Shown here piece by piece: positions 40,048 to 61,463 of a stretch of DNA of 64,000 nt. The notes under the pieces were generated by a model. The model was not told where the DNA came from, searched no databases, and saw nothing but the letters and a program-made list of their open reading frames with translations. Origin of the DNA: Candidatus Heimdallarchaeota archaeon (GTDB lineage Archaea; Asgardarchaeota; Heimdallarchaeia; Heimdallarchaeales; Heimdallarchaeaceae); NCBI GenBank assembly GCA_030668875.1, contig DAOVER010000006.1, positions 37,286 through 101,285 of the forward strand, read 5' to 3'. Numbering within the stretch: position 1 is the stretch's first letter; each line of letters begins with the position of its first letter. The position numbers and the translations under genes are program-made.

Positions 40048-40116
40048 TTAGTTTGGAAACCAACCAGGTGGGAGAATATCTCCATCTCCTTCGTCAGGAT
40101 CGTATAGTTTTAACAT
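40048..40116 (-). CDS. Micropeptide P1 (22 aa), orphan: MLKLYDPDEGDGDILPPGWFPN
   Basis: Same motif as five other ORFs in the window; conserved leader with TGAC (GTCA on coding strand) 72 nt upstream. Confidence 0.75.
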   Translation of the reverse strand: MLKLYDPDEGDGDILPPGWFPN

Positions 40117-40216
40117 TTTACGTCATCTCGGAAAGGTTACCATATTAATAGAAGAAAGCTATAAAATATCAAAAGGAAAAAAGATGACAAAAAAAGAGGT
40201 GGCTATTTATCCTGGT

Positions 40217-41800
40217 TTATAGTGTTAGTGAGCGAATATCTTTTTGTTGCATGTCTAAATAGTCTAACAATTTATTCTCCAATCTGCTGAAACCATAATT
40301 CCTGCATTTTTTGATGGCCATGTATTGGAGAGCAGGTCCTAGAGGATCACCATTCTTGAAAGCACCAACCTGGATAAAAGCTTCCATGAAAACACGCAAT
40401 TCGAGAACTTCTATTTTATGGGTTTGATTTTCATATTTCCTTAACAATGGAGAGATTTCTGCAAAACGATTGATTTTGTAATATTCCTGTGCTGCAAGTA
40501 AATCTGCGAAAGCTTTCTCAACATAAGTCATTCTTTCCTCTACAGGTCTTCTTTTGAGTGTGTTTATTCTCTGAAGAACTTGTTCATCATCACTTCCCTG
40601 CCATATTAGGAAGTCTAGAATGTGTTCTACTCTTTTAGTGCTAGGATTATTTAACTTCTTTATATCTTGTAATTTTGATTTAGTCAAATTGGTATTAAGC
40701 AAAAACTCACTTAACATAATGGTATTACTATGATAAGTACCTACATTACTAATAATAGTCTGAATTAGGTCTTGAAATTTTTCTATATTGAAGTCATATA
40801 ATCTTGATTGAATGTAAAATTTAGTTAGAGTGAAATCATGGACTATCTGATTTTTATTGAAAGAGTCAAGATTCTTTACAGCTATTTCCTCTTCTAACAA
40901 CTCCTCGACCTTCTTCATTTGTTCCAGAGCCAATTCTAATCTTCCTTGTAAAGCATAGGTTGTAGTAATATGAGAAAGAGACATTAAATAGTATCCTGAA
41001 TAGATACTATCCTTATATATAGTTTTCAAAATTCTTTCTGCTTCTAACAAGTGTTTCTCAGTTTCACCAAGATTAAAAGATAACTTATGACTTACGCCAA
41101 TAAAATAATGCACAACAGATTGTATCTCTTCGGGCATGTTAAGAAGAAGGTTGTAATTACTTAGAATGTCTTTAACAAGAGCTAATGATTTCTCTTTGTT
41201 TTGTGTTTGTTGATATATGACTATTAAAATGCACAAAGTTTTTGCAAAACTTTGGAAATAACCATTTAAATAAAAGAAGTTTCCACACTCTTCTAATATA
41301 ACTGAACTTTTGAAATCTCTTGTTTCCAGCCATTGTTCAACAGCGCAAGTGTATTTTATAAAGTGAAAGATAAATCTATCAGGTTAATCTACTTCTTCTA
41401 GTAATTCTAAAGCTTTGACAATTTCATATTTTCCCCTTTCTTTTTTTCCTTTTAGTTTAGCTATATACCAAGCAAAAGAATGAGAAAAAGCTAAACCTTC
41501 CTTATAATTAATTTTATTTGCCAAAGTTTGCATTTCATGAAGTAGTTGGATTGATTTTTCCAATTTATCAGCTTGTTGAACAAATTGTAAAATTAAAAGT
41601 CCATCCAAAATTACGCGAGATTTAAAATCTTCAATCTTAGTTGCTATAAGGATACAATCCTCAATCAATTTTATAACAATTTTATCTGATCTCTTGTTAG
41701 ATGCTAGAATCTTCAAGTGAGATATTAATGCTTCTAATTCTGCACTTGATTTTAAATGATTGATATGTTCCTGTAATTCACATATTTCCATATAACTCAT
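40217..41800 (-). pseudogene. TPR-A: TPR-like helical repeat protein (527 codons) interrupted by one in-frame TAA at 41384-41386
   Basis: Both ORF fragments (40217-41236, 41384-41800) and the segment between are in one frame: …LEEVD*PDRFIFHFIKYTCAVEQWLETRDFKSSVILEECGNFFYLNGYFQSFAKTLCILIVIYQQTQ…, colinear with TPR-B/C/D. Confidence 0.85.
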
Positions 41801-41921
41801 CTTTACTAATTTGTGGAAAGAACATTTCTACACATATATCTCCACTTTCGTATATAAACTAGGTAGATTCACTTTGATAGATATTGTGAAAAAAAATAAA
41901 GAAGGGAATAGATTTCTTGGA

Positions 41922-41990
41922 TTAAGGAAGCCACATAGGGGGTAATATATCTCCGTCTCCTTCGTCAGGATCATATGTTTGTTTTATCAT
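41922..41990 (-). CDS. Micropeptide P2 (22 aa): MIKQTYDPDEGDGDILPPMWLP
   Basis: 121 nt upstream of TPR-A, same strand; GAGTGAT upstream of ATG; conserved leader. Confidence 0.85.
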   Translation of the reverse strand: MIKQTYDPDEGDGDILPPMWLP

Positions 41991-42151
41991 TGTGTATCAC
42001 TCATTTAGTTATACTTAGAAATAGGAAGAAGATACTAAAACAATAAGGAAATTAAATGACACAAAAACAGTAGAATCATTTACTACTATTTAGTTCATTT
42101 CAAAATGGAGAGAAATTGTTTGTTTCAAGCGCCGAAACGATTGAATATACA

Positions 42152-42187
42152 ATCTTACCACATAAATATTTTTCTCTGTGGTAAGAT
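42152..42187. repeat. Inverted repeat IR1: ATCTTACCACA…TGTGGTAAGAT
   Basis: 11-bp perfect arms, 14-nt spacer. Confidence 0.85.
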
Positions 42188-42232
42188 ATTTCTTCTATAT
42201 CATTTTTCCACCTGATCCTTAATATCCTTTCA

Positions 42233-42274
42233 ATTATCTTACCACATTCTTTATTATTTGTGTGGTAAGATAAT
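42233..42274. repeat. Inverted repeat IR2: ATTATCTTACCACA…TGTGGTAAGATAAT
   Basis: 14-bp perfect arms, 14-nt spacer; same sequence family as IR1. Confidence 0.88.
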
Positions 42275-42300
42275 AATAAAAAAAAGTTTTTCGCTTGAAA

Positions 42301-42756
42301 TTATCTTAGCAGATCAGGGTGGATTTCCAATATCTTTAATTCACCATAGATTTCAAGAAGTTTGGTGGTTACGGAATACAATCGTTGAGAGACGTTACCT
42401 TTTCTATGTAACATGTTCTCGTCTGCTAATCTTGCAAGATAAGTACTGACTGTACTCATCTTTATTCCTTCTTTAAACACTATCTCATACAACTCACAGA
42501 CTTCATTAGAGGTAAACCAATCACTCTCAGGATAATGGTTCCTAATGATACTAGCAACTCTTTCAATAATTGAAGCTCCAAGGAGTTCGGTAATAGAGTT
42601 CATCTTAATTGGTTCGCGTTCTCCTTCAGTAGCAACGGCTTCTTTTCCAGTAACTAAAGCAAGTGTTGTCTTTAAACTCTCGGTGTCTCCTGAAGGTATC
42701 CTTATGATCGTCCCATCAGGCAGTTTAATTGTAATTTCTTTAGGCATTAGACTCAC
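42301..42756 (-). CDS. Winged-helix DNA-binding protein
   Basis: WFTSNEVCELYEIVFKEGIKMSTVSTYLARLADENMLHRKGNVSQRLYSVT is wHTH-like. Confidence 0.65.
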   Translation of the reverse strand: MSLMPKEITIKLPDGTIIRIPSGDTESLKTTLALVTGKEAVATEGEREPIKMNSITELLGASIIERVASIIRNHYPESDWFTSNEVCELYEIVFKEGIKMSTVSTYLARLADENMLHRKGNVSQRLYSVTTKLLEIYGELKILEIHPDLLR

Positions 42757-43132
42757 TTTGTTACTTGTTATGTTTACACAGTAATTTGTATTTAAAGGTA
42801 GATATCACGTTTGTCTAGGTATAGGCCAATAAAAACATACGTATTAACAAAAAATTGTTCCGACTAAAATTTAGACAGACCCCACCAGTTCCATTGGAGA
42901 GTATTATCTATATAAATAACTGTTTTCTGTATTAAATATAGAAAGACTTATATAATCATCATTTTTCTTTTATTAGGAGGCTATGTACAATTAAAATATA
43001 TTATACTTTTTTCCATAATATGTACAATAAATATCACTTCCACAAGAAACAATGGGGAGTCTGTATACTTGTCAGTTTTTATTTAACTATACAAATGTTT
43101 AAAATCTTTTAATGACCGGAAATCTCGATACT

Positions 43133-43411
43133 ATGGTTACTAGAGTACGTTTTTGTGCTAAGTGTGGACGTCCTGTCCAGGGTAAGGTTAATTATTGCGA
43201 AGACTGCACAGCTGATATTACAGCGGGTACCCAAGATAGATGCTCGATCTGTGGTAAAAGTAAACTTATGTCCCCATTGACATACAATGCTAGAATCAAG
43301 AAAGTCTATTGTAAAGAATGTCTTAATGTCTTTATTGCAGGTCTTAGAGCTAAGGAGATACCTCAAAGAGAAATTAATAAAATGTTAACCAAGGATTTTG
43401 TACCACTTTAA
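43133..43411 (+). CDS. Double zinc-ribbon protein
   Basis: FCAKCGRPVQGKVNYCEDC and CSICGKSKL…VYCKEC. Confidence 0.65.
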   Translation: MVTRVRFCAKCGRPVQGKVNYCEDCTADITAGTQDRCSICGKSKLMSPLTYNARIKKVYCKECLNVFIAGLRAKEIPQREINKMLTKDFVPL

Positions 43412-43664
43412 TGGTCATTAAAACCTCAGAATCTATCACTATTTAATTTCCTTTTCTATTCTTCTTTTCCCTTTACAATAAGAAACCAATAGATTAGATC
43501 AAATCACTTCAGTTGCTCTATGAAAAAAGATGATTAGATAAGAACGGTAAACCAAAAGAAGAAGAAATCAGGAAACTTGGAATTAATTAATTTAAAAGAA
43601 TATATAAATTAAAATAAACGTGAACACAATTAATTCTTCAGAACAGTAAATAGGAGTAAATAGG

Positions 43665-45382
43665 TTATGTCAGTCTCACATATCCTTCTCTTAATGAATA
43701 AATCTCTCCATTACTTCGAAGTTGTTCTATAACTTTTTCAACAAAGTATTCTTCGATATTATTCTCTTTGGCAATCTCTTTGATTTTCCTTAAAGGCACT
43801 ATGTCGACACATCCTTTTCGAGATTCCTCTTTTATGATTAAATAGATTAACTCAAATTTTGCCTTCCAATTCTCCCCCCCTAATCCTAACAGCTGTGATT
43901 CTATTGTTTTTTTATATCCTATTTTCTTTAACGCATCAATTACAAACCATCTTACCTTCTCATCCTCATCTTTCAGACCTTAAATAAGAATTTTCATTAC
44001 CAGTTTACTTCCTTTGTTCCCTAATATTCTGGCAGCTTTTACTTGTAACCAGCTACTCTCATCTTTCAATATTTCAATTAGTTGTTCATCTGTTTTTCCA
44101 TCCCCTTTGTCCCCAAGCACAATTGCTACTCCTTTCCTTACAATCTTATTTTCTTCTTTTAGTGCATCAATGAGAATGAGTATTACTTGTTTGTCTTTTA
44201 TTAATTCTAATACCTCTACTGCTGCTCTCCTTACTTCCATATTGTCATCTTTTAGAGCTTTAATGAACAGACTAACACCTCTAACTCCGATGAATTTGGC
44301 TATTCTATATGGCGTGTCTCTTGCTCCTCTATTTGCAATCTCGTTTTTATCTTTTAACACTTCAAAAAGCAGATCACAAACTCGTTCATTTCCTTCTCTC
44401 CAACCTATATCACTTAAGGAATACTTAGCTGCATTTCTCACATTCTCAAATGAATCTTTAAGAGCTTCAATCAATGGTTCTGCTCCTAATAAGTCTCCTA
44501 TCTCCCCTAACGCTTTTGCAGCAACATGCCTTATGCTTTCATCGTCATCTTCTAGTACTTTTAAAAGTGGTTCAATAACATTTGTACCGCCAATTTTTCC
44601 TAATGCAATTACAATCTCCTTTTTTACCCGCAGGTACTGCTCATCTTTTAGTACTTCAATGAGTGGTTTTACAGCCTTTTCATGTCTTATATGTCCTAAT
44701 GCTAACACTGCATAACTTCTTATCCTTACATCTTCATCTTTCAGTGCTTCTATTAGTTGAGGGATTGCTCTTTCTCCTAAATCCAAATCTTTTATATAAG
44801 AAATTTCCATATTCTGATAATAATAATTTGCTTGCTTTCCAATCAATTCTAATGTTTTTGCTGCTTTAACCCTTACTTCCTGTGTTACGTCTTTGAGTGA
44901 TTTTCTGATATATGGTAACGCTTGTAAATCGCTAATATTCCCTAGCGCTTCTATTGCAATTAGTCTAATAACCTTATCTTGCGCTTCTAATGCATCAAAT
45001 AATGCATTCATCACACGTTGATCGTTGAATTTTTTTAATACTGTAGAAGCATTTTCCCTTACCATCTCATCTTCGTCTCCTAACATATTAAATAAGGGTT
45101 CTATAATTTGAGAACCACCAATATTACCCAATGATTCTACTACAGCTCTTCTTACATCCGAATCTTTATTTTTTAGCATTTCGATGAGCACAGAAAGCGA
45201 TTTTTTTTCAAGCCTTCTCCTTCACCCTCCCAGTATTTATCTTGAAATTCCTCTTCCAGTTTGATGAATTCAGGATCTTTAGATTCTTGTGACAATTTGG
45301 ATAGATTGAACTTTTGTTCCTTCTCTTTTCTAACTTCACTCTTCTTTTGAGTATCAGGTTCAAGCTGATCTTTCCAATCCAT
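43665..45382 (-). pseudogene. HEAT-repeat (PBS-lyase-like) protein, apparently broken by a frameshift at the T8 run 45201-45208 and an in-frame TAA at 43980-43982
   Basis: ORF 43980-45191 is HEAT repeats; 45173-45382 gives a plausible N-terminus in another frame; reading past the TAA gives GLKDEDEKVRWFVIDALKKIG…KIKEIAKENNIEEYFVEKVIEQLRSNGEIYSLREGYVRLT*. Confidence 0.75.
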
Positions 45383-45441
45383 TACCTAGGAAAGAACAAT
45401 TGAATATAAAAATACAATCTTATGAATACATTATTTTCACT

Positions 45442-45510
45442 TAAAGACCTAGTGGACTATGTTACCATTTTTTACAAACCTTTTCTACTTACATAAATTG
45501 GCTTTAGATC
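45442..45510 (-). pseudogene. Remnant of the 3' end of the FtsX-like permease gene
   Basis: aagacctagtggactatgttaccaYtttttnyaaMccttttctacttRcataRattg is shared with 47674-47740 (the permease stop region). Confidence 0.75.
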
Positions 45511-45671
45511 TTTATTTTACGTTTTTTATTACATGAATCATACTTGTTTTTCTTATTCTGAGTTGTTTGTGTAAGAATTCCCTTCAAATACAGTTTTTCT
45601 GTCAACTTCTTTCCTTGTGTCTTTTAGTAGTTTGTTAATACTCTAAGTATGAATTTAACAAGTGATGAATC

Positions 45672-45740
45672 ATGATAAAACAAAAATATGATTCTGAACC
45701 AGGTGATGATGATATAGGACCTCCTTTATGGTGGCCATAA
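45672..45740 (+). CDS. Micropeptide P3 (22 aa): MIKQKYDSEPGDDDIGPPLWWP
   Basis: Same motif; AAGTGATGAATC-ATG; GTCA box 71 nt upstream; convergent with TPR-B. Confidence 0.8.
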   Translation: MIKQKYDSEPGDDDIGPPLWWP

Positions 45741-45776
45741 TTAAATATCATAATTTCTTCTTTTTGTAAGTACTTA

Positions 45777-47366
45777 TTACTTAGATTGAAGCACATCCGT
45801 TCGTTGCACATCTAAATAGTCTAACAATTTATTTTCTAATCTGCTGAAACCATAATTCCTGCATTTTTTGATGGCCATGTATTGGAGAGCAGGTCCTAGA
45901 GGATCACCATTCTTGAAAGCACCAACCTGGATAAAAGCTTCCATGAAAACACGCAATTCGAGAACTTCTATCCGATGAAGTTGATTCTGATATTTTATTA
46001 AGATAGGATAAATCTCTAAATATCTTTTTTCAATAAATAGCTCATTTACAAGGCATAAATCAGAAAAAGCCTTTTCAACAAATGTAAAATCTTTAAGTTT
46101 AGGTTTTTTACTGAGTGCATCTTTGAATAATTCTATCCTTTTTTCTTTATTTGTTTGAGTTTTTGTTAGGACATATTCTATGATGTGTTGAATTCGATAT
46201 ATACTTGAATTGTTTGATTCTTTTAACTTTACAAGCTGTTTATAGTTTAACTCTGCATTCAATATAAATTCGCTTAAAAGGATAGAATCACTGTAATTAT
46301 TTTCAATTCCTTCATATATCAGTTTTATAAGAAGTTGAACTTTTTTTGAACTAAAACCATATAGTCGTGAATAAACATAGAATTTGACTAAATTTAGCGT
46401 ATGAGGAACTTGTTTTCTGCTATAAGGATCCAAATTTTTTCTTATAAAATCATCCTCAATTAATTCTTCAATCTTCTTAATATGTTCAATAGACTGCTCC
46501 AGTTTACCCTGTAATGCTTGAACAATAGTTAAATGAGATAACAGTCTAACATAGTAATAGGAATAATAACCACTCAGTTGTAGTTTTGAATTCATTAACA
46601 GATAGGATTCATTAAACAGATATTCTGATTGTCTCAAATTATGAATCAATAGTTGACCAACCCCAGCAAGATAATAAGCTATAGCTTGAACATCTTCTGG
46701 TAACTGTGTAAAGAGATATTTGTTGCTGAAGATCTGTTGAGAGATCTTTATTGCTTTTTTCTTATTTTGTGTTTGTTGATAGATTATAATTAAAATGCCT
46801 AAAGATTGTATCAAACTTCTATAATATCCTTCTTTAAAGAAATAATTTGAGCACTCTTCTAAAATTGAACCACTTTTGATATTATGATCTTCTAACCAAT
46901 ATTCAATTGCTAATGAGTAGTTACAGATATAATGGGCATATTTTTCGGGATTAGGGTTCTTCTTAATATGATTTATTGATTCCTCAAGCGCTTTCCTGCT
47001 TTTTTCTTTGTTACCTTGTATTTTTTCAATGTACCATTCAATATTATAAGAAAGAGCTAACCCCTCAGAATACTCAATCTCAATAGATAATTCTTTCATT
47101 TCTTGAACTATTTTAAATATTTCAGGAATTTTATCGAATAAGTGTTCAATCTGAGATATTTTGATTTCATAAGTTTTTACTAAAGATTTTTTATCATTAA
47201 GTAATCTGCATTTTTCTATTATTTTTTCTAGTAACCTAATATTATTCATGTCATATTTACTATTGGAGATTATAACCCTTAATTTATCAAGAAAGCTCTC
47301 CATATCTTTTCTTGATATAATTTTATCTAATTTTGTAATCAGGTTTTCCATGGAATTAATCACCAA
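45777..47366 (-). CDS. TPR-B: TPR-like helical repeat protein (529 aa, intact)
   Basis: Paralog of TPR-A/C/D; conserved C-terminal block IEVLELRVFMEAFIQVGAFKNGDPLGPALQYMAIKKCRNYGFSRLENKLLDYL. Confidence 0.85.
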   Translation of the reverse strand: MVINSMENLITKLDKIISRKDMESFLDKLRVIISNSKYDMNNIRLLEKIIEKCRLLNDKKSLVKTYEIKISQIEHLFDKIPEIFKIVQEMKELSIEIEYSEGLALSYNIEWYIEKIQGNKEKSRKALEESINHIKKNPNPEKYAHYICNYSLAIEYWLEDHNIKSGSILEECSNYFFKEGYYRSLIQSLGILIIIYQQTQNKKKAIKISQQIFSNKYLFTQLPEDVQAIAYYLAGVGQLLIHNLRQSEYLFNESYLLMNSKLQLSGYYSYYYVRLLSHLTIVQALQGKLEQSIEHIKKIEELIEDDFIRKNLDPYSRKQVPHTLNLVKFYVYSRLYGFSSKKVQLLIKLIYEGIENNYSDSILLSEFILNAELNYKQLVKLKESNNSSIYRIQHIIEYVLTKTQTNKEKRIELFKDALSKKPKLKDFTFVEKAFSDLCLVNELFIEKRYLEIYPILIKYQNQLHRIEVLELRVFMEAFIQVGAFKNGDPLGPALQYMAIKKCRNYGFSRLENKLLDYLDVQRTDVLQSK

Positions 47367-47484
47367 AGGTTAAAGAAACTTATATTTTAAACACTATAAA
47401 CAATTCTAAAAAAATTGCATTTAAATTGCATGTTTTACTCTAATTATATAATATTTTTAAAATAAAATAAAGAAAGAAACCCTT

Positions 47485-47550
47485 AAGGTCTCCATAAGGG
47501 TGGTCCTATGTCATCATCACCTGGTTCAGGATCATATATTTGTTTCATAT
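47485..47550 (-). CDS. Micropeptide P4 (21 aa): MKQIYDPEPGDDDIGPPLWRP
   Basis: 118 nt upstream of TPR-B, same strand; AAGTGATGCAAT-ATG; conserved leader. Confidence 0.85.
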
Positions 47551-47685
47551 TGCATCACTTAAGTTGTTTACATTATTGTATAAGGAGAATATTTAAACCT
47601 CAAAAGAAAGAAATGACACTAAAAAAATAACGAGTTTAGATTGTTGAAATTTCAATAAAATTATTTTCCTTTAAGACCTAGTGGA

Positions 47686-49497
47686 CTATGTTACCACTTT
47701 TTCTAACCCTTTTCTACTTGCATAGATTGAGGTTGTTGTTGCTATTAGTATGAATCCTACTATTACTGATATAATTATTACTGGAAAGTTCGATAATACT
47801 GCATAAGGTACAAGAAAATATCTACCTATTATTGCTCCGAAATAGCTTCCTAAAGCTATACCTGGGATGATTTGCAGAAGTATTGCCGTCACTACTGATC
47901 CGTATATGCTTTTCTTTTTTATTCCTAGCCTATACAGTAGTTCGAAATCCTTTCTATACGTTAGGAAATACAGGAACGAATATACTATTATTTGGAATGC
48001 AAATATCGCGAACATTATTCCTCCTAACACCTTAAACATAGTTGTAAAACTGTTATAATTCGCTAGATTTTGCTCGATCATTTTTTCCATGCTTATTATT
48101 TGATATTCATATCTTTCAAGAATCTCGCTTATTTTATCGTAAACTGTAGTACTTATATTTTCTAACATTAGTAAATTAGAACCATTAGCCACACCCTCTG
48201 CTATTAGTTTATTCAGTGGGCAATAAACACTGTATCCTGCTGCGAAACTATCTATCACTACACCACTAATTTGGTAATCATTTGAATCATCGTACAGTTT
48301 TAATTTTTGTAGAGTGCTATTATCAAAAAACTTAGCTTCTAAAGTATCACCTATTAAAACTTCATTTTTTGAAGGATTTGGGTTGTCCCCTGCTATATAT
48401 TCATTTTCGTTGAAATTAATATTTTCATATCCTATTATGGTAGCGTATACTTTACGATCTTGACCTATTGGTATGTACACATTATTCACTATTTCAAGCG
48501 CTGACATCTCTTTTATTTGCAGTTTTGAAATGAAATACTTCTGATACGTTACGTTTATCCCTCCTAATTCAGTTAATAGTTGAGTTGATATTGAAGTATT
48601 ATAGAAATGTTCTAGGTCATTATCTAATCCTGTGTACGAGCTATTACTATATTCCTGTACTGGTAAGCTCTGATTAAAGAAATCAATTGCATCTGGCTCT
48701 CCTATAACGTACGAGTAATCTTGAAATCTACTATTCAAATTTACATAATGTGTTTCAGCAACTGTTAGTGGTCCCAAAACGAATGAAATTGAGGAGAAAA
48801 TAAGAAAGAAGCTAAATAGAAAGCTAGACAGTACTTTTCCTGATCTTAGGAAATTCTTTACACCTAGCTTTACGGATGAAGTAAACTTGTTTATTAATGC
48901 ATCAAATTCAAAGATGCTTTTGTAGTTACTTAAACTGCTGGAAGATACTTCAAAGTCTTTTTCACTGATGAATTTTAATATTGTATAATGGGCTTTAATA
49001 TAAGAAGAAACCAATATTACCAGATTCCCTCCTAGTATTGGGAGAAACCCTACATAGCTAAAGATGCTCCCAAACCCAAAAGAAACACTTGTTATAACTA
49101 AAACAATTAATCCTAGAACCATTCCTAGAATCAACATTATAGTTGCTGTCAAAATTTGATTGAAGATAAAATAGCTGTATATCCACCTACTTTTTCCTCC
49201 TACATTTTTCATAACAGCGATGTCATCTTTTTGACTTTGAAATTTAAGCTCTATTGATCTGATAGTGACAATTACTCCAATTATTATACAAACCACAATG
49301 AAAATTACTGTAATCAACGTGTAGGAACTGAAGAAAACATAATCCAGTGACATTTGGAGATTAGCTCTCATTAGTGAGAATAAACCTATACTGATTGTAA
49401 TAGCTGAGTAGGTTATTATTTGGCTAATAAAGGTAAATAGTGAGCCTAGGAACGATCTTTTAAAATCAATCCATGCAAATTTCAGTTGTCCTATCAT
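47686..49497 (-). CDS. FtsX/MacB-like ABC transporter permease
   Basis: About 8 hydrophobic segments in two FtsX-like blocks with a large extracytoplasmic region; adjacent ATPase. Confidence 0.85.
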   Translation of the reverse strand: MIGQLKFAWIDFKRSFLGSLFTFISQIITYSAITISIGLFSLMRANLQMSLDYVFFSSYTLITVIFIVVCIIIGVIVTIRSIELKFQSQKDDIAVMKNVGGKSRWIYSYFIFNQILTATIMLILGMVLGLIVLVITSVSFGFGSIFSYVGFLPILGGNLVILVSSYIKAHYTILKFISEKDFEVSSSSLSNYKSIFEFDALINKFTSSVKLGVKNFLRSGKVLSSFLFSFFLIFSSISFVLGPLTVAETHYVNLNSRFQDYSYVIGEPDAIDFFNQSLPVQEYSNSSYTGLDNDLEHFYNTSISTQLLTELGGINVTYQKYFISKLQIKEMSALEIVNNVYIPIGQDRKVYATIIGYENINFNENEYIAGDNPNPSKNEVLIGDTLEAKFFDNSTLQKLKLYDDSNDYQISGVVIDSFAAGYSVYCPLNKLIAEGVANGSNLLMLENISTTVYDKISEILERYEYQIISMEKMIEQNLANYNSFTTMFKVLGGIMFAIFAFQIIVYSFLYFLTYRKDFELLYRLGIKKKSIYGSVVTAILLQIIPGIALGSYFGAIIGRYFLVPYAVLSNFPVIIISVIVGFILIATTTSIYASRKGLEKVVT

Positions 49498-49516
49498 ATC
49501 TATCCCACTAACGTTA

Positions 49517-50380
49517 CTAGTTTTCCTGTTCTTCTTCTATGAAGTCTAGCTCTTCTTCTGTCATGTTCATTAATTCTTCCTCTGTATAATCATCAATAGG
49601 TTCAGTTTCTTCGTTTTGCATCTCCATAGAACTGATAGATCTATACTTAGTATCTTGTTTCTTTTTTCTTTCAGGATGTTCTTCTTCAAGTGTTACAGAT
49701 TGTGCTCCTACACGATATATTGTCGATGCTATTTCCTTCATTTTGGGGTCATGTGATGATACAATAATAGTTATGTCTGTTGTTGTAAATATTTCTTTAA
49801 TTAATTCGCACATCATATCAGCTGATTCACGATCTAAATTACCTGTGGGTTCGTCTAATATTAGGATGTAAGGGTCATTAGACAATGCTCTTGCTATTGC
49901 CACACGTTTCTTTTCTCCCCCACTTAACTGTGCTGGAAAACTATCTTTCCTTTTATCTATCTTCAATCTCTCTAATAATTCGTCTATCTTTTTTTCTCTT
50001 TCTTCCTCCTCTCCATCAAAACCACATAATTCCTGGAAGAGGATTATATTTTCTTTTACAGTAAGTGTAGAGACCAAATTATTTTCTTGAAAAACAATTC
50101 CAAGATAATTTGAGCGAAAATCAGCTTTTTCTCTATCTTCTATTAGATCTATGTACAATCCAGCTACTTCTATTTCCCCCTCATTTGGGTGCAAAAGCCC
50201 AGTTAATATGTTTAATAGAGTTGTTTTTCCACTTCCACTTGGACCATACAATAATACCAATTCATTTCTTTCTACCTCTAAATTTACTTCTTTAAGTATA
50301 ACTAATTCCTCCCAGAATAATTGAAATTTCTTTGATATATTGGCAAAACGCACGATTTGTTCCATCTTAATCCCACACAC
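49517..50380 (-). CDS. ABC transporter ATPase (LolD/MacB type) with acidic C-terminal extension
   Basis: LLYGPSGSGKTTLLNIL, LSGGEKKRVAIARALSNDPYILILDEPTGNLD. Confidence 0.93.
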   Translation of the reverse strand: MCGIKMEQIVRFANISKKFQLFWEELVILKEVNLEVERNELVLLYGPSGSGKTTLLNILTGLLHPNEGEIEVAGLYIDLIEDREKADFRSNYLGIVFQENNLVSTLTVKENIILFQELCGFDGEEEEREKKIDELLERLKIDKRKDSFPAQLSGGEKKRVAIARALSNDPYILILDEPTGNLDRESADMMCELIKEIFTTTDITIIVSSHDPKMKEIASTIYRVGAQSVTLEEEHPERKKKQDTKYRSISSMEMQNEETEPIDDYTEEELMNMTEEELDFIEEEQEN

Positions 50381-50506: not shown

Positions 50507-50563
50507 AAGAAATTAAGAGACATCTAAAAGACTTACATGAACATGATTACCCTCTTTAGAGCT

Positions 50564-52156
50564 CTATACTGTTCTTCTTATATCCTTATGCTGCAATTGT
50601 AAGTACTTTAGTAATGTATTTTCTAATCTAGAGAATCCGTAGAGTCTGCATTTTTTAATTGCCATGTATTGTAAAGCTGGCCCAAGAGGATCTCCGCTAT
50701 TATAAGCTCCTACTTGAATGAAAGCCTCCATAAAGATGCGGATCTCTAGAACCTCAATTCGTTTGAGTCTACTCTCATATTGCTTGAGGAGAGGAGCGAT
50801 TTCTGCGTAACGCTTAAGAGAAAACAGTTGCTGTGCTATAAGGAGATCTGTATAGGCCTGTTCTATGAATGTAGTCTTATCTGTCTTTACTCGTTTTTCT
50901 AAGATAGAAATAAAGTTCAGATTTTTCTGTTCCTGACTAATTTCCGTTTCTAATTTTTGCTTTTCAAGCATGAATTCGATTAGATGTTTTACTCGATTAA
51001 TGCTGAAATTATCGATTGCTAATAATGATTGAAGTTTAGCAGAATCAAGATTGGAATTAAGGATGAACTCACTAAAGATCATAAAATCGCTATAATGAAC
51101 CTTACAATCTTCATTTATTTCTTCTATTAATTCTTGGTGTTCTTGAGAATTGTAACTGCTTAAACGTGATAAATTATAGAATTTTATTAAACTGTGAGTA
51201 TGAGTAATTTGCTTCTTGGTGTTTTCATCCAAATTTTTCTTGATAAATTCTGTTTGGAGAAGAGTTTCTGCTTCTTTAACCATATTTGAAGCTTGCTCAT
51301 TTTTCCCTTGTAAACCTCTAACGGTAGCAATATAAGAAAGTAAAACAAGATAATATGCAAAATAGATGCTGTTTTTGTATACTGGTTTGAGAATACTGTA
51401 AGCTTCATTAAAATATGATTCAGCTATTGCTAGATTAGCATCTAACATATACCCCAAACCTGTGAAATAGTAAATGATTCCTTTAAAATCGCTAGATAGT
51501 TTTTCGAAAAGAGTTCTGTTAGCAAGGATTCTATTACTTATGTTTAAGGCTTTCTTGCTCTCATGAGTACGACTGTAAATAATGCTCAAGAGACCAAAAG
51601 TTTGAGCCAAACTTCGGTAAAACCCTTCTTGAATGAAATGTTCAACACAGTCCTCTAAAAGCACCGCACTTTCCGCACTATGATTTTGCAACCAGATTTC
51701 TATCGCATATGAATATTTACACGTGAATATTGTATATGTATCTGACACATTTCTTTCGTTAATAAATTCAAGAGCAAGTTGTATTTCTCTACTACTACTT
51801 TTTGTGTTTCCTTGAAGTCTCTCAAGATGCCATTTAATCTGATGTACAAGTGCTAGTCCTTCGGAAAATTCTATTTTTTGGGATAATTCATACATTTTCG
51901 TTAATATTCTCTTAATTTTCACAATATTACTGGCGTGGTTATATAACTGTCTTATTTGTAAATCGTATAAACGAATAAGTGTTTTTGTGTCTTTTATTTT
52001 ACTGCTTTGTTCTATTGCATTTTCAATGTACTGACAGATTAATGGTTCGCTTTTATTAGAAGCAATGACTCTTAGCTTTTTTACTAGATCAAATAACTTC
52101 TCTCCACTAGTGATATTATTAACTTTACGAAAATTATTACCTTTCTCCAATTTCAT
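50564..52156 (-). CDS. TPR-C: TPR-like helical repeat protein (530 aa, intact)
   Basis: Colinear with TPR-B; C-terminal IEVLEIRIFMEAFIQVGAYNSGDPLGPALQYMAIKKCRLYGFSRLENTLLKYL. Confidence 0.85.
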   Translation of the reverse strand: MKLEKGNNFRKVNNITSGEKLFDLVKKLRVIASNKSEPLICQYIENAIEQSSKIKDTKTLIRLYDLQIRQLYNHASNIVKIKRILTKMYELSQKIEFSEGLALVHQIKWHLERLQGNTKSSSREIQLALEFINERNVSDTYTIFTCKYSYAIEIWLQNHSAESAVLLEDCVEHFIQEGFYRSLAQTFGLLSIIYSRTHESKKALNISNRILANRTLFEKLSSDFKGIIYYFTGLGYMLDANLAIAESYFNEAYSILKPVYKNSIYFAYYLVLLSYIATVRGLQGKNEQASNMVKEAETLLQTEFIKKNLDENTKKQITHTHSLIKFYNLSRLSSYNSQEHQELIEEINEDCKVHYSDFMIFSEFILNSNLDSAKLQSLLAIDNFSINRVKHLIEFMLEKQKLETEISQEQKNLNFISILEKRVKTDKTTFIEQAYTDLLIAQQLFSLKRYAEIAPLLKQYESRLKRIEVLEIRIFMEAFIQVGAYNSGDPLGPALQYMAIKKCRLYGFSRLENTLLKYLQLQHKDIRRTV

Positions 52157-52218
52157 TCACATAATGATTATACGTAAAATGGTATATAAAGGGAGATATA
52201 ATTCTCCCCAGATAGAAA

Positions 52219-52287
52219 TCAGTGTGGGGACCAAAGTGGGGGAAGTATACTTTCGTCTCCGTCTTCCGGATCATATTTTTGTTTCAT
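52219..52287 (-). CDS. Micropeptide P5 (22 aa): MKQKYDPEDGDESILPPLWSPH
   Basis: 62 nt upstream of TPR-C, same strand; GAGTGATGAACA-ATG; conserved leader. Confidence 0.85.
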   Translation of the reverse strand: MKQKYDPEDGDESILPPLWSPH

Positions 52288-52433
52288 TGTTCATCACTCT
52301 TTTGTGTTATACTTAGAAGAAGAAAAAACTACTAAAAGACAACAAGAAAGAAACTGACAAAGAGACTGTTTTACTATTAAAAATATCAATAATACAGGTA
52401 TTTTCTAAAAAGGATTAAGAATGCCATAAGATA

Positions 52434-52489
52434 AAATATGGGTAGCGAAGTTTCGAGATGAGATTATCATTCAAGGGTCTACACCAATA
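52434..52489 (+). repeat. Direct repeat copy 2 (flank of the TPR-C cassette)
   Basis: aaatatgggtagcgaagtttcgagatgagattatcattcaagggtctacacc matches 50450-50506. Confidence 0.75.
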
Positions 52490-52519
52490 AGTCCAATCCC
52501 ACACGAGAAAACTTCGCTA
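52443..52519. repeat. Inverted repeat TAGCGAAGTTT … AAACTTCGCTA
   Basis: 11-bp perfect arms at 52443-52453 and 52509-52519. Confidence 0.7.
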
Positions 52520-52581
52520 GATAGACATGATTGTTGTACATTATATCCTTTTTTGTTAGCGTTACTGATGATCGTTTTCTA

Positions 52582-53394
52582 TCATACAGTGCGAAAATCG
52601 ATGTTTATGTGTATAATGTTAACAGTTAGCGAGAAAACTGGAGGCGCCAATGTATAAGCAATATTTTGTGAAAAGCCTGTTGTTAGAGCTTTTACAGATA
52701 GCTCATTATTTTGCTCACCGAGATTTATACTTTCTATTACTTGACTTAATTTCACAATCTGTATTTTATCTTGTGTATTTACTATTGGAAAATACTCTCC
52801 TTGTCCATCCAAAGTTTTTGAAGTGTTTAAGTGAACTATCATGAAATTAACTTCTACATCTGAATCACTTGTTTGTTCAATACTTACAAAAACACTGTAG
52901 TATAATTGAATAGTTTTGTATCCATCAAATGTTTGGTGGACTATATTCATCATTTGTGCTGTTCTGTTAAGCGAATATACAAGCAATAATGGACTTCCAA
53001 AGTCATATATTGCCCCTCCTAACCCCTCAAAATTCCCTTCTATTTTATACTCAACCTCTCCTGTAAAATAGGATTTATTCAGTAAATTAACTCCTCCTGA
53101 ATTTATCATTAAGGATATTTCTCTATTTTGTTTCAAATCTAGTATCCCACTATCAAGATTATATCTTAGTACGCTTGACGAGTTATCTGGTGTGTTGATG
53201 AGTGTTTTAATTTCTGAATCGAAAGACAAGAATGTGTTTGTAGCAGCTGTTAGATCACTCTGTGTCTGAAACCTTTCTAATGATGGTATTATTTGCGAAA
53301 AAGCTAAACCTAAAGCAGAAACCATTACTGTGAAGATAACTAAAGTTGATATAATACTTGAAACTCCTCGACGAGATTTGAGTATTTTCATCAT
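52582..53394 (-). CDS. Pilin/archaellin-like secreted or surface protein
   Basis: MMKILKSRRGVSSIISTLVIFTVMVSALGLAFSQIIPSLERFQ: basic N-terminus then hydrophobic helix, type IV pilin-like. Confidence 0.65.
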   Translation of the reverse strand: MMKILKSRRGVSSIISTLVIFTVMVSALGLAFSQIIPSLERFQTQSDLTAATNTFLSFDSEIKTLINTPDNSSSVLRYNLDSGILDLKQNREISLMINSGGVNLLNKSYFTGEVEYKIEGNFEGLGGAIYDFGSPLLLVYSLNRTAQMMNIVHQTFDGYKTIQLYYSVFVSIEQTSDSDVEVNFMIVHLNTSKTLDGQGEYFPIVNTQDKIQIVKLSQVIESINLGEQNNELSVKALTTGFSQNIAYTLAPPVFSLTVNIIHINIDFRTV

Positions 53395-53461
53395 GTATAT
53401 TATGTTAAACAATTTGTCTTATTTAACTTTGCGGAACTTCTTACGCAAACGTCATCTAGTA

Positions 53462-53992: not shown

Positions 53993-54797
53993 GTTTCTAC
54001 AAGGGTTTTGTTGTCAATATAAACATTTTCAACAGAATACCACTGTAGTCAACTAGTATACTAACTGTATTATTTATGTAATATTTTAAACCGGCATTTT
54101 CCTCAAAAGTTTTCTTTAAGACTGTTTAATTGGTTTTCAGGTTTATGTACCTTTTGTTCATAATGTTTCCTTTGTACAAAACTTCTTACTTCTTCATTCT
54201 ACTTTTATAATTATTCATTAACCTGTGATCAATTTTTTAAAATGTGCATTTTATTGGATTCTATATTCCTAATTTTTTATATTTAGGGTTTGAACTTTAT
54301 TCTCTCATTTGTAAACCAACTGTCGGTAATCTTCATGAAGTAAGTTCAATAATATTCACTTGAATTTATTCTATATTCTTGAAACTCTTGTATTCGCCTA
54401 TCTTGATACTTCTGTTAACTATTAACTACATTTTCCTTCTCAAATAAATATGAGCTTTGTTTTGCTTTTTGTTTGTTTAAAGAGTATTCGATATATTGTT
54501 TCAGTACGCTTGATACAACTATTCTAAATTACCTTTATTCAACCATCTAGTTCAAAATTATTATGAATTGTTTATTGAGTAAACATTTACTTGAAAGTCT
54601 ATTTCTTTGTACAACTCCCGACATAAATAGTACGGGAGAAAAAATACCGAGATTATGAACTTTGATTGACAAAACTTGTGTTTTTCATGGTTCTAAGTTC
54701 TTATTCTCGACAAAAATATATTTTCAGCTAAAATTACAGGTTTTAAGGGCGTTTTCTGCAATCTAGAAATAAGTTTAGAGTATTAATTTGACTAGTT

Positions 54798-55028
54798 TTA
54801 TTTCTTCTTTTTATTATACCTAACAATCTTGAAAATAGAGTAACCAACACCAATTGCTAGAACACTAAGAGCTAAAGAAGATGTAACAACATGATTTGCT
54901 AGAAATCCTTTTGCCATTATCCATATTAAGAAAAAGATTGTTGGTATTCCTATAATGCAATTTACAAGAGCAAATTTATTCACTTTCTTGCTCTGCTTGT
55001 CTTTATCTACTTGGTATCCTAATGTCAA
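54798..55028 (-). CDS. Small membrane protein, uncharacterised
   Basis: 76 aa, two predicted TM segments. Confidence 0.5.
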   Translation of the reverse strand: MTLGYQVDKDKQSKKVNKFALVNCIIGIPTIFFLIWIMAKGFLANHVVTSSLALSVLAIGVGYSIFKIVRYNKKKK

Positions 55029-55127
55029 CTTGATCTAATATTGAGTATGCTTTAGTATATATATGCACCACAAACAATAATAAAAAATAGGGGGAGGAAA
55101 ATATATCCCCTGATTTACTTATTAGTA

Positions 55128-57017: not shown

Positions 57018-57234
57018 AACAAGCGTTCTCCTAGTCTAATGTAAATTCTAATGTACTCTCAAAGAAAATTGAATTATAAATGAACTTTTGCATTTTATCA
57101 AATTTTTTTCGTTATTTTTGTATATATCCTTTCTTTTACAATTATTGGAGTGTAAATACAATCTTATTCATATAACGTTCTTATTTGTACATTTTTTTGA
57201 TGTCTAAATAAGATGATACAGTTGATACCTTGAA

Positions 57235-57397
57235 GGATTGTAGCTATGCACCAGTTACGTGGTGATTCTCGAGGCTACATCCAACAAACATCTAAAAGCG
57301 AACCGTAAGCATCTTTATGAAAAGATGTGGGCGGTGTAGGAGGATAAGTGATTTATCCATCTGAGTAAGTATAGGTTGTAAATCAGTCATCTTACTC
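57235..57397. ncRNA. Candidate structured RNA of unknown family
   Basis: Consecutive hairpins: 57235-57244/57274-57282, 57249-57252/57261-57264, 57310-57316/57321-57327, 57342-57347/57353-57358, 57363-57369/57391-57397; relatively GC-rich, intergenic. Confidence 0.45.
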
Positions 57398-57503
57398 TCT
57401 ATATGATGAACTCTATAAAATACACAAAATGATTGATTGAAACGAAGAAATCATGAATATTCCGTTATGGCAATGAAAATATGGGGACAATAAAAATGTT
57501 CCC

Positions 57504-58061
57504 TTATTTTTTGTCAAATAATTCCTTGTACAATTTCATAGAGTGTGTTATACATTTGAAGGCTTCTGCTTTCTTGTTCCACCCTATTACTTCTACTTTT
57601 TTACCATGTTCTAAACCTTTGTAGGTCTTGAAAAACTCTGCAATTTCACTAAGTGTATGAGGATAAACATCATCTAATCCATAAACCCCATGATAGAAAG
57701 GATCGGTTGAAGCAACTGCTAAAATCTTGTCATCGTGTCCTTTCTCATCTCTCATTCTAAGAATACCAATTGGTCGAGCTGCAACGACACATCCTGTAAA
57801 CGTTGGCTCAGAAATGAGAACAAGAATATCAAGGGCATCACCATCTTCAAAATATGTTTGAGGTATTAATCCATAGTCTCCTGGGAAGTGAACTGAGGAG
57901 TGCAAAACACGATCCAGGTAAATTATACCACCTTTCCCTAATTCGTATTTATTCTTACTATTTTTAGGATTTTCAATAATAGCATAAACCTCCTCAGGAG
58001 GATTTGGACCAACTTTGATTGTATGCCACAAAGAGTTTGTATCTACCATATTGCTTCTCAT
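57504..58061 (-). CDS. ppa: Inorganic pyrophosphatase
   Basis: ENPKNSKNKYELGKGGIIYLDRVLHSSVHFPGDYGLIPQTYFEDGDALDILVLISEP. Confidence 0.96.
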   Translation of the reverse strand: MRSNMVDTNSLWHTIKVGPNPPEEVYAIIENPKNSKNKYELGKGGIIYLDRVLHSSVHFPGDYGLIPQTYFEDGDALDILVLISEPTFTGCVVAARPIGILRMRDEKGHDDKILAVASTDPFYHGVYGLDDVYPHTLSEIAEFFKTYKGLEHGKKVEVIGWNKKAEAFKCITHSMKLYKELFDKK

Positions 58062-58229
58062 TAACCTTTACACGCAGTGATAAAAACATTGTCAAAAAGA
58101 GAAAAAGAAAATCTGTCATCTTATTTTATAGTAGTTTTTTTAGGATGAACACATTCAACTAGTGGAAGTAGAGGGTGGCGAAGAGAGGGCATAAGGATTA
58201 TGTGGCATCACTCGAAGGAAACAAAACCT

Positions 58230-59384
58230 CTATTTCCTCTTTTTTCTTACGAAATAAATTAAGGGCATAATTGCTGTAGTTATTATACAAATTGATAATA
58301 AGCTGGCTGTCGAATACTCATCTATTTCAGGTAAGTTTGCAAATTGTGCAAGTGGATAAAGATCTACTTCTCCATATCCCCCCCCTATTTCATAGAAACC
58401 ATCTCCGTCCCAATCGTCCCAGTAGTTTCCTTCAAGAGTTGTAGGATCATACCACAGATTACCTTCTGAACCATTAGTTGGTCCTTCAAAGTAGGCTTGT
58501 TCTGTTCCACCTTCGTTTCCAATAAACACATTATGGTGAATGATATTATTTGATGATTGATATGCTAAAACTACACCAAACTCCTCATTGGCTTCAAACC
58601 AGTTGTACTTAACTTCACAGCCATAAGATAAATCTAATCTTGTTCCATTACCGCCATTAAAACTACATGTGTTGTTATAAATCTCTGAGTATGAAGAATC
58701 ACAGACATATATTCCATCTCCATTGAAACTACATGTATTATTATAAATCTTGTATTTGTCTCCAGCATCAGCCATTAATGCTTTTCTTTGAACTGATTCT
58801 ACTGTATTATTGTATACTTCTGTATACCCTCCACTTGTCCATATACCCATATCAAAACCAGTAACATAATTGTGAGCTATGATTGAAAAATTACCTGTGT
58901 GCGCTATACCTTGTCCATAAGTTCCTCCATAGTCAAGCTTGTTGTAAATTATGGTGGTATTAGGACACCTGTAGCATTTGATACCTGTTTGTCCTAGGTA
59001 TTCAATCACATTGCCTTCTATTCTAGCTCCTGCTGTGGCATTCCAGATATACATTCCGTCAATACTAGAACTAACATAGCAGTTTTTAATAAGAAATGCC
59101 TTTACAGTATTAACAATAAATATCCCGTAGGATTCACTTGTTACAATCTCCAAGTTTTCAATTAAGTAAGGATCTGCTAACGATCCAGAACCATTTATAC
59201 CATAAGTTGCCCAATCACCATCATCATTAATAACGATGTTACTGAAGGGTATTCGTTCCATATTCCATGTAATCGATTCCTTTTCTGTGGAAATATGGCT
59301 AAAACCATTTTCAGTAGAACTGAAAACTAAAATTATAATCGAGAAAAATGCTAGTATAAACAAAATTTGTTTTTTAATTTTCAT
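58230..59384 (-). CDS. Secreted right-handed beta-helix (NosD-like) protein with C-terminal TM and basic tail
   Basis: N-terminal signal peptide; repeated IYNNTCSFNGDGIYVCD; C-terminal ASLLSICIITTAIMPLIYFVRKKRK. Confidence 0.8.
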   Translation of the reverse strand: MKIKKQILFILAFFSIIILVFSSTENGFSHISTEKESITWNMERIPFSNIVINDDGDWATYGINGSGSLADPYLIENLEIVTSESYGIFIVNTVKAFLIKNCYVSSSIDGMYIWNATAGARIEGNVIEYLGQTGIKCYRCPNTTIIYNKLDYGGTYGQGIAHTGNFSIIAHNYVTGFDMGIWTSGGYTEVYNNTVESVQRKALMADAGDKYKIYNNTCSFNGDGIYVCDSSYSEIYNNTCSFNGGNGTRLDLSYGCEVKYNWFEANEEFGVVLAYQSSNNIIHHNVFIGNEGGTEQAYFEGPTNGSEGNLWYDPTTLEGNYWDDWDGDGFYEIGGGYGEVDLYPLAQFANLPEIDEYSTASLLSICIITTAIMPLIYFVRKKRK

Positions 59385-59478
59385 TATATCAACAAGGTTT
59401 ATGCTTTTTTATATGCATAAACAGTTATAAAGATTGTTCAGTTCATGGAACAAATAAAAAAAAGCAAGTTGAAAATAA

Positions 59479-59512
59479 TCTTACCACATAAAATGTATAT
59501 TGCGTGGTAAGA
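59479..59512. repeat. Inverted repeat IR3: TCTTACCAC…GTGGTAAGA
   Basis: 9-bp perfect arms; same family as IR1/IR2. Confidence 0.75.
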
Positions 59513-59629
59513 CAAACAAAAACAAGAAATCGACCTGAGGAATTTTGGAGATAAGAGGCGTATCTACAAAATATATTTTCATGACAAAAATAAAAACCTC
59601 CAAAGAACATAGGAACCCTCCCTTGAGTT

Positions 59630-61218
59630 CTATATTGCTTTTGTTATCTCCTTATGCTGCAATTGTAAGTAATCAAGTAATTTGTTTTCCAATCTAGAGA
59701 ACCCATACAATATACATTTCTTTATAGCAATATATTGCAAAGCTGGACCAAGAGGATCTCCGTTCTTATATGCTCCAACTTGGATAAAAGCTTCCATGAA
59801 GATACGCATCTCTAAAACCTCAATTCACTGTAGCCTGTTTTCATATTGCTTGAGAAGAGGAGAGATTTCAGAAAAGCGTTTAATCTTGTAATATTCTTGT
59901 GCAGCTAATAAATCTGCAAAAGCCTTCTCGACTTTAGTCATCCTCTCCTCTACAGGCCTTCTTTTCAAAGCGCTCACGTATTTTAAGACCTGGTAATCTG
60001 AAGTGTATTCTTCATTTAATTTCAATTTCTCTAGTAGGAAGTCTATGATATGATTAACTCTTGTGATGCTTGGATTGTGAAATTTTTTATTCTTATCAAC
60101 TGTTCTATTTCTAAACTTGCATTTACTAGAAATTCACTTAACATCATTGTATTACTGTAATATCTCTTAAGATTCATCATTATGTTAAGAATCAATGCTT
60201 TTACATCCTTCATTTGAAATCTTTGAAATCTTGATTGAATGTAGAATTTTGTAAGGTTTAGTGTATGGATTATCTGTTTTCTGTTGTACACGTCTATATT
60301 TTGTTTTGCTAAATCTTCTTGTAGTAAGTCCTCAATTTCTAACATCTTGTTGCATGCTAATTCTAGTTTTCCTTGTAGAGCATATATTGCTGAAAGATGA
60401 GATAGTGTTGTTATATAATACCCTGAATAAATGCTTGTTTTATAGATTGGCTTTAATATGTCTTGAGCCTTTGAAAGCTGTTCTTCAGCTTCTTTTAGAT
60501 TGAAATTTAGTTTATGACTAACACCAATGAAATAGTGAATGATAGACTTTATTTCTACCGGCATATCATCAAGTAAATCATGGTTAATGATAATTTTCTT
60601 AGTTTGAGATATTGAATTTTCTTTGTTTTGAGTTTGTTGATAAATTATTATTAAAGCACCTAATGACATAGCTAAACTATGATACAAATTATTTTCATAA
60701 AAATAGTCAACGCAACTTTCCAGAATTTCAATTGCATTTGGATTGCGATTCTCTAACCATTCTTCTAGAGCGTATGAGTAATTAATGAAGTGATAAATGA
60801 ATTCATCAGGTTGCTGTATTTCATTTAATAGCTTTACCGCTTTTTTAATTTCTTCTCTACTTCTCTCTCTATTTCCTTGAAATTTCTCAATGTACCAGGA
60901 AAATGAATAAGAAAATGCTATACCTTCTTCATAATTAATTCTATATGCCAAATGTTGCATTTCTTCAAGTAAACTAATTATTCTGTTCAGGTTACTAGCC
61001 TTGTGTTCCAATTGTAGAATTAGTAATCCATACAAAACAACAGTTGATTCATAATCTGAAATTTGATTTGCTTTAGTAATAAATTCCTCAATTCAATTAA
61101 CAACTTCTTTTTTTGAACGCATATTAGAAGCTAATATTTTCATATGCGAAATTAAAACCCTAAAATCTACCTCTGAGTTTATAGAGCTAATTCGTTCTTT
61201 GAGTTCGTTTAGTTTCAT
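59630..61218 (-). pseudogene. TPR-D: decayed TPR-like paralog (two in-frame TGA stops and a frameshift)
   Basis: MKLNELKERISSINSEVDFRVLISHMKILASNMRSKKEVVN*IEEF…; frameshift near the A-run at ~60085-60090; …ENRLQ*IEVLEMRIFMEAFIQVGAYKNGDPLGPALQYIAIKKCILYGFSRLENKLLDYLQLQHKEITKAI*. Confidence 0.85.
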
Positions 61219-61400
61219 ATTTCCCACTTTTACACTTCTACTAAATACACATCCTTCATATAACTACAGAATTCTTCCAAGATTTAGTAAACATAAGTTC
61301 TCAAACTTAAATCCTTCAATTGGTATATATACTCGGGAAATACTAAAACTAGATTTCTCAAAAAAAGTGTGAAATGACTCCATATTTCAAGCTATAGATG

Positions 61401-61463
61401 TCATGCTGGAGGTAAAAAGTCCTCGTCTCCTTCATCAGGATCATATTTTTTGTTGCTCATCAT
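61401..61463 (-). CDS. Micropeptide P6 (20 aa, C-terminally truncated): MMSNKKYDPDEGDEDFLPPA
   Basis: 182 nt upstream of TPR-D, same strand; GAGTGATGTAAGA-ATG; leader nearly identical to P5; TGA where others have TGG (Trp). Confidence 0.75.
   Translation of the reverse strand: MMSNKKYDPDEGDEDFLPPA

Follow-up and report, generated by a model that had tools for sequence, protein, structure and literature searches.

Are the very short open reading frames (ORFs) that lie among genes for tetratricopeptide repeat (TPR) proteins in a Heimdallarchaeota genome real genes, and do their products act on the TPR proteins encoded beside them? The stretch that raises this question, here called the window, is 64,000 nt of contig DAOVER010000006.1 of assembly GCA_030668875.1 (host genome 3.2 Mb). 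A preliminary description had reported six paralogous micropeptides, P1 to P6, paired with four receptor-sized TPR proteins, TPR-A to TPR-D, as an archaeal peptide/TPR signalling or regulatory cassette resembling the bacterial RRNPP systems. We propose, with good confidence, that a micropeptide and the TPR protein encoded downstream are a cognate ligand-receptor pair, the proximal peptide being bound in the TPR groove. This proposal draws on position-specific covariation, on a specificity pocket tested on held-out data and on AlphaFold2 (AF2) prediction, and it retains the peptide as the ligand of the adjacent TPR protein while giving up membership of RRNPP.

All six micro-ORFs are present with the sequences first reported, and a six-frame scan of the window for the peptide motif yields zero further matches. 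They belong to one family, although P6 lacks the PPxWxP end and has TGA at its Trp position. Only TPR-B and TPR-C are intact; TPR-A is interrupted by one TAA, and TPR-D is frameshifted and carries stops. The suggested pairing is borne out for P2, P4, P5 and P6, which lie upstream of a TPR gene, but P3 is convergent with TPR-B and P1 sits behind TPR-A. The gaps between P2 and TPR-A (121 nt) and between P5 and TPR-C (62 nt) are exactly as given earlier; that from P4 to TPR-B is 116 nt rather than 118 nt, measured to the TTG start at 47366, and downstream of P6 the TPR homology of the broken gene starts after about 183 nt.

The peptide genes recur well beyond these six. The host genome contains 12, divided equally between the window's contig and contig C9, and every one lies near paralogues of the TPR gene. 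The earlier suggestion to search related metagenome-assembled genomes (MAGs) proved fruitful: peptides occur by the same TPR family in 20 Heimdallarchaeota genomes, whose fetched loci (0.88 Mb in total) hold 156 peptide ORFs of about 22 residues each, with the consensus M-(x)-[YF]DP-x-x-GD-x-x-[IL]-[LTG]-PP-x-W-x-P and a hypervariable residue between Trp and Pro. Close peptide pairs differ 141, 139 and 379 times at codon positions 1, 2 and 3, and differences per site amount to 0.19 within the peptide ORF vs 0.46 upstream and 0.56 downstream. Because of this codon-position pattern and the low divergence inside the ORF, the peptides look translated and under purifying selection, the absence of which had been named as grounds for abandoning the cassette. 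Judged by their 12 copies in the genome, the 156 in relatives and their coding-type substitutions, the micro-ORFs are not chance occurrences, and the third-position substitutions together with a Shine-Dalgarno sequence (GAGTGATG) preceding the ORFs make them look translated.

A conserved stretch also lies 5' of the peptides. Near -72 it has TGTCA and a run rich in T, near -50 a TATA-like TTTTAATA/TTTAAGTA and near -22 TAAC. When this element is modelled over 62 nt, the matches in the genome at E<=1e-4 are exactly the twelve peptide loci, the next match having an E of 0.02. Within this genome the element is confined to these sites; it belongs to the peptide genes and marks one regulon.

Among the 156 peptides, 140 lie <=700 nt from an ORF of the TPR family: 105 are upstream and co-oriented, 16 are convergent at the 3' end, 17 are behind the gene on the same strand and 2 overlap it. 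Conversely, a peptide lies upstream of 67 of the 83 intact TPR genes. Two TPR subfamilies can be told apart: type 1, to which the window's genes belong, has about 528 aa, and the distantly related type 2 has about 560 aa and is often accompanied by a convergent peptide (full-length receptors are mostly 524-546 aa and 549-574 aa, respectively). TPR homologues without the peptide ORF, which the preliminary description regarded as telling against it, are confined to nine type-2 genes or fragments about 20% identical to TPR-C, beside which a search with a relaxed motif found none. Peptide-free type-2 genes (L205, L148, L154, L171, L143) share a conserved neighbourhood, with a UDP-glucose dehydrogenase-like gene on one side and a 715-aa protein on the other; the peptide-free state is perhaps ancestral.

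Covariation was analysed in 64 type-1 TPR genes, each taken with its nearest upstream peptide (peptide residues are given in alignment numbering, TPR residues after TPR-C). Taken whole, the peptide covaries with TPR residues 200-420 (r 0.61, or 0.65 when compared within genomes, P<2e-4), whereas its within-genome correlation with the N-terminal 140 residues, though these are nearest on the DNA, is 0.12 (P=0.3). The penultimate residue, 20, shows the reverse: it tracks TPR residues 65, 69, 72, 103, 106, 107 and 110 (Z 10-18 against a permutation 95% point of 4.7) and does not track the TPR middle. Residue 18 covaries with 181-189, residue 15 with 268-273, residue 14 with 152-189 and 268, residue 13 with 230-275 and 392, residue 12 with 236-320, and residues 8/9 with 266-443. 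Covariation covers peptide residues 8-20, and weakly 0-4, and the resulting contact order is antiparallel (Spearman -0.82, P=3e-4). The covarying TPR positions favour one helix per pair, the series that we take as groove-lining (45/133 vs 16/132, P=2e-5).

Eight TPR residues (65, 69, 72, 103, 106, 107, 108 and 110) form a pocket that sorts receptors by peptide residue 20, with the classes EKFLSIEG for Phe, DRYLQLxH for Ser, GLELSYxY for His, ESELNIEY for Arg, GPYWSYIY for Gln and SxHLSHxY for Trp. In a nested test with pocket positions picked from the training genomes only, residue 20 is predicted in 54 of 64 genome-held-out cases (chance 9.4, shuffled labels 9-10), and when comparison receptors are <=35% identical in the remaining N-terminus, 36 of 64 are still correct vs 4.1 by chance. 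Residue 15 is predictable as well (53/64 vs 28 for the majority class). For unused type-1 pairs the code is right in 9 of 10; the tenth was missed because of a mis-paired training example. At locus L176 the true proximal peptide overlaps the TPR start. Counted among the nine is the broken TPR-A, whose pocket predicts Leu and whose P2 ends in MWLP. The residual pocket of TPR-D predicts His, and the codon following the TGA of P6 is His, so that both members of this pair appear to have degenerated together. Peptide and receptor agree for 57 of 64 proximal upstream peptides but for only 2 of 27 distal tandem ones. Many distal peptides (L032, L135, L147, L166, L175) end in PPxWTP or PPxWLP, for which few receptors are known; they could be orphan ligands or remnants of lost receptors.

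At the level of sequence comparison, coding selection, a shared promoter, pairing, a specificity code and a contact order are thus established; docking in the groove is a prediction from modelling only. AF2 was given DNA-encoded read-through frames in which peptide, intergenic stretch and TPR run in frame, with stops read as Gly. The TPR protein is predicted as an all-helical superhelix (predicted template modelling score, pTM, 0.85). In a first run, peptide residues 14-22 rise above a predicted local distance difference test score (pLDDT) of 50 and their flanks stay below it; in a second, with another pair and an alignment with more paired rows, residues 11-20 reach a mean pLDDT of 82, with linker blocks at 23-39. 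Foldseek matches are generic TPR proteins (APC5, TSK, MalT domain III, NOT10), and lower-ranked ones include Rap-CSF, NprR and LGN complexes. Pfam, NCBIfam and PADLOC give weak generic TPR matches or none, and a sequence search of the PDB with the TPR protein gives only weak matches to the TPRs of IFIT1.

The last 70 or so residues are near-invariant among type-1 paralogues within the genus, the rest having diverged, and the N-terminal, middle and C-terminal parts of the TPR protein have nearly independent histories (r 0.12-0.17). Gene conversion or shuffling of domains, together with a conserved face for output, would suit this combination.

In the mechanism that we propose, the family-wide promoter element drives a short transcript for each micropeptide, from which it is translated. 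The extended peptide, probably bound along nearly its whole length, would occupy the concave groove of the TPR superhelix whose gene lies immediately downstream. The peptide would lie antiparallel, with its C-terminal PPxWX on TPR repeats 2-3 and its acidic middle on repeats around residues 230-445, and residue 20, flanked by Trp and the last Pro, would meet the pocket that decides whether peptide and TPR match. From the near-invariance of the last 70 type-1 residues we infer that the C-terminal repeats serve as a common output, probably by binding a common partner. Regulation by the TPR protein would then be ligand-controlled, with the peptide turning this common output on or off in the manner of Phr and Rap. 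Diversified specificity joined to a constant output is typical of pheromone and recognition systems. Whether the peptide acts between cells rather than inside its producer is nearly an even call, which we place slightly on the doubtful side. More tentative again is the fuller picture of a Heimdallarchaeota recognition system independent of RRNPP, with stand-alone, unprocessed 22-residue pheromones or kin/self markers passing between cells, long TPR receptors, a residue-to-pocket code, and an output module that stays constant while the ligand sites diversify.

Several points weigh against the ligand-receptor proposal. The evidence base is MAG sequences, that is, sequence comparison together with AF2 prediction, and the 64 peptide/TPR pairs have common ancestry. 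The AF2 docking is a prediction read from pLDDT and made with an artificial linker. Sixteen of the 156 peptides have no TPR gene nearby, distal tandem peptides misfit the adjacent receptor, and the pocket code holds for type 1 only, failing on type-2 TPRs (0/5). Residue-20 specificity is also not over-dispersed within genomes, so insulation between paralogues is unsupported.

The best rival, which we consider unlikely, is an inhibitor or toxin-antitoxin pair working within one cell, the TPR protein being active or harmful by default and held off by the peptide. It uses the same binding, so our estimate for it does not exclude the ligand-receptor claim. An upstream peptide gene with its own promoter, peptides that outlast broken receptors (TPR-A; orphan peptides) and the lack of an export signal would all suit it, but the TPR protein matches no toxin or defence family (Pfam, NCBIfam, PADLOC), and it is hard to see what diversified specificity coupled to a constant C-terminus would serve unless something crosses between cells. 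Classical RRNPP-type quorum sensing, in which the peptide would be exported and trimmed to a short C-terminal pheromone that is imported again and binds the TPR protein, is improbable. The peptide and receptor genes side by side, the tandem peptides, the orphans and the expanded paralogues recall Rap-Phr (PMC9765709), and the code is strongest at the C-terminal end of the peptide; yet covariation extends to peptide residues 8-15, which argues that most of the peptide is bound, the neighbourhoods contain no recurrent processing or import genes, and the peptides have neither a hydrophobic nor a Sec signal. On this last point the preliminary description was right: 150 peptides have a mean charge of -3.7, a mean GRAVY (grand average of hydropathy) of -1.1 and a maximum GRAVY of -0.38, and are acidic and hydrophilic without a Sec-type signal among them.

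Could the covariation arise without any peptide/TPR interaction, simply because duplicated cassettes are linked units or descend from a common ancestor? Cassettes do duplicate, the pairs have a joint history, and there is some background covariation across the TPR N-terminus (median Z 3.2). However, only about 33 nt separate peptide residues 8/9 from residue 20, yet they follow different parts of the TPR protein in opposite patterns, which makes linkage an unlikely cause; the pocket remains predictive with remote receptors, and distal tandem peptides, equally linked, misfit. Given these position- and distance-specific controls we rejected linkage as the source of the covariation and hold it very improbable. 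Scarcely credible is a precursor of a ribosomally synthesized and post-translationally modified peptide (RiPP), with the TPR protein as recognition or scaffold protein, a role that had been left open before. The peptide's small size, its conserved Trp, Asp and Pro and its apparent binding by the TPR protein would fit, but there is no leader/core division, and it was the neighbours that led us to drop the idea: those that recur are housekeeping genes in conserved order plus one pair of ATP-binding cassette (ABC) genes, with no tailoring enzyme among them. A cis-acting leader peptide (upstream ORF) that controls TPR translation or transcription through an inactive product has practically no chance and is already contradicted. 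Its upstream position, and a PP motif and Pro near the stop codon that could stall ribosomes, speak for it; geometry rejects it, since a leader should always sit 5' of the gene it controls and share its transcript, whereas there are 16 convergent and 16 solitary copies. Against it, too, are the peptide's own promoter, TATA-like motifs between peptide and TPR gene in 59 of 67 cases (37 when shuffled) and residue-specific covariation with the TPR protein.

We compared the cassette with known systems, taking the criteria for RRNPP membership from PMC9765709 and PMC10075063. By analogy it would work like RRNPP, most closely like Rap-Phr, although we do not assign it there. The shared features are a TPR-fold superhelix with covariation on groove-lining helices, the peptide in the groove being a prediction, and a short peptide gene that adjoins the receptor gene. 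The receptors exceed the 250-500 aa used as a criterion by RRNPP_detector (PMC10075063), the exported propeptide, of Sec or short hydrophobic peptide (SHP) type, is absent among the 150 peptides, and RRNPP family models reveal no TPR homology beyond generic weak matches. No helix-turn-helix (HTH) domain is matched in Pfam or NCBIfam, in sequence-family scans to which a Rap-like three-helix bundle, needing coordinates, would not be visible; this absence was previously listed as a difference from RRNPP as a whole, but Rap proteins lack HTH too (PMC9765709).

Distribution differs as well. RRNPP has been described from Bacillota and their mobile elements (PMC9765709, PMC10075063), whereas the present system is confined to Heimdallarchaeota in our searches. 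A peptide profile built from the host's twelve matches at E<1e-3 in 20 of 56 genomes, namely 19 of the 21 members of its own genus searched and one member of a second genus of the same family; outside that family the best match in the 56 genomes has only E=0.08. Full-length TPR homologues have the same limits, except that one genus member has TPR without peptide. A phylum-wide TPR profile search (227 genomes) returns just short generic TPR matches elsewhere. Public records of the homologues come from Candidatus Heimdallarchaeota (including AB_125), and IMG/VR viral contigs give no match at the sensitivity used.

Rap-Phr likewise combines a TPR receptor lacking HTH with an adjacent short peptide gene, several peptides per receptor, orphans and many paralogues (PMC9765709). 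Here, in contrast, the peptide is hydrophilic and acidic, lacks an export signal and seems to be bound along most of its chain, and the receptor, of 524-570 aa, has no detectable homology and occurs in one Heimdallarchaeota family only. ComRS and Rgg-SHP also place a very short Trp-containing or unprefixed peptide beside a TPR-like receptor gene, but their receptors have HTH (PMC9765709) and SHPs are exported by PptAB (PMC10075063), neither of which is seen here. LGN-Inscuteable (PDB 5a7d, 3sf4), among the Foldseek matches, offers a long peptide in a TPR groove; it is eukaryotic, its ligand is a segment of a larger protein rather than a stand-alone micropeptide, and the similarity is that of TPRs in general. 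Archaeal quorum sensing (the carboxylated acyl-homoserine lactone of FilI; the Haloferax signal) would be comparable as archaeal signalling if the peptide leaves the cell, but the signals identified there are small molecules, with filI the sole archaeal gene experimentally tied to quorum sensing (PMC12240190). In the literature searched, which leaves bioRxiv preprints and most subscription papers outside its coverage, no peptide/TPR recognition system in Archaea is described. If our proposal is true, an independent system of this kind would be the first for Archaea, in a group related to the ancestors of eukaryotes, and would provide a natural collection of orthogonal peptide/TPR pairs. It is unusually testable, as ligand, receptor, contact order and a simple pocket code all come from sequence.

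Table 1. Receptor genes, micropeptide ORFs and promoter elements of the window, with positions counted from its first letter.
Feature	Position	Strand	Remarks
P1 micropeptide	40048-40116	-	MLKLYDPDEGDGDILPPGWFPN; behind TPR-A, without an adjacent receptor of its own
P1 promoter element	40131-40188	-	model R1, E=4.3e-8
TPR-A, type-1 receptor gene	40217-41800	-	one in-frame TAA at 41384-41386; pocket GLVFSFAY
P2 micropeptide	41922-41990	-	proximal partner of TPR-A; residue 20 Leu, matching the pocket prediction
P2 promoter element	42002-42061	-	model R1, E=1e-4
P3 promoter element	45600-45659	+	model R1, E=1.4e-8
P3 micropeptide	45672-45740	+	convergent at the TPR-B 3' end; residue 20 Trp mismatches the TPR-B pocket
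TPR-B, intact type-1 receptor	45777-47366	-	pocket ESELNIEY (Arg class)
P4 micropeptide	47483-47548	-	putative TPR-B cognate; residue 20 Arg
P4 promoter element	47559-47618	-	model R1, E=3.1e-11
TPR-C, intact type-1 receptor	50564-52156	-	530 aa; pocket DRYLQIKH (Ser class)
TPR-C near-invariant C-terminus	50567-50790	-	last 70 or so residues
TPR-C codons 65-110	51827-51964	-	pocket residues 65, 69, 72, 103, 106, 107, 108, 110
P5 micropeptide	52219-52287	-	putative TPR-C cognate; residue 20 Ser
P5 promoter element	52301-52359	-	model R1, E=7.1e-13
TPR-D, broken receptor gene	59636-61194	-	frameshifts, several stops; residual pocket GLEFSFSY (His class)
P6, truncated micropeptide	61401-61463	-	LPPA-TGA end replaces PPxWxP; then CAC (His)
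P6 promoter element	61483-61535	-	model R1, E=3.9e-6

Solitary peptides at L134:4887-4949, L182:8612-8972 and L181:2470-2699 have the full promoter element and no TPR gene nearby; they adjoin housekeeping genes where relatives carry whole cassettes. Fetched contigs often start or stop within or near cassettes (L177, L186, L042 and others). Cassette repeats probably break assemblies, so that copy numbers are lower bounds.

Between TPR-B and TPR-C, at 47686-50380 (-), lie genes for an ABC permease and a LolD/MacB-like ATPase, and about ten loci have such a pair in the vicinity of TPR or peptide genes. The permease occurs in 19 of the 20 peptide-bearing genomes and is missing from both peptide-free members of the genus. 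The pair is a possible exporter, but conserved gene order explains the pattern, including the 19 of 20, as well, and with a 32% homologue present in a peptide-free genus we rejected it as a dedicated one. Beside TPR-C, at 52582-53412 (-), is an ORF with a type IV pilin-like N-terminus (RRGVSSIISTLVIFTVMVSALGLAFSQ), and at five loci its homologues are found close to TPR or peptide genes.

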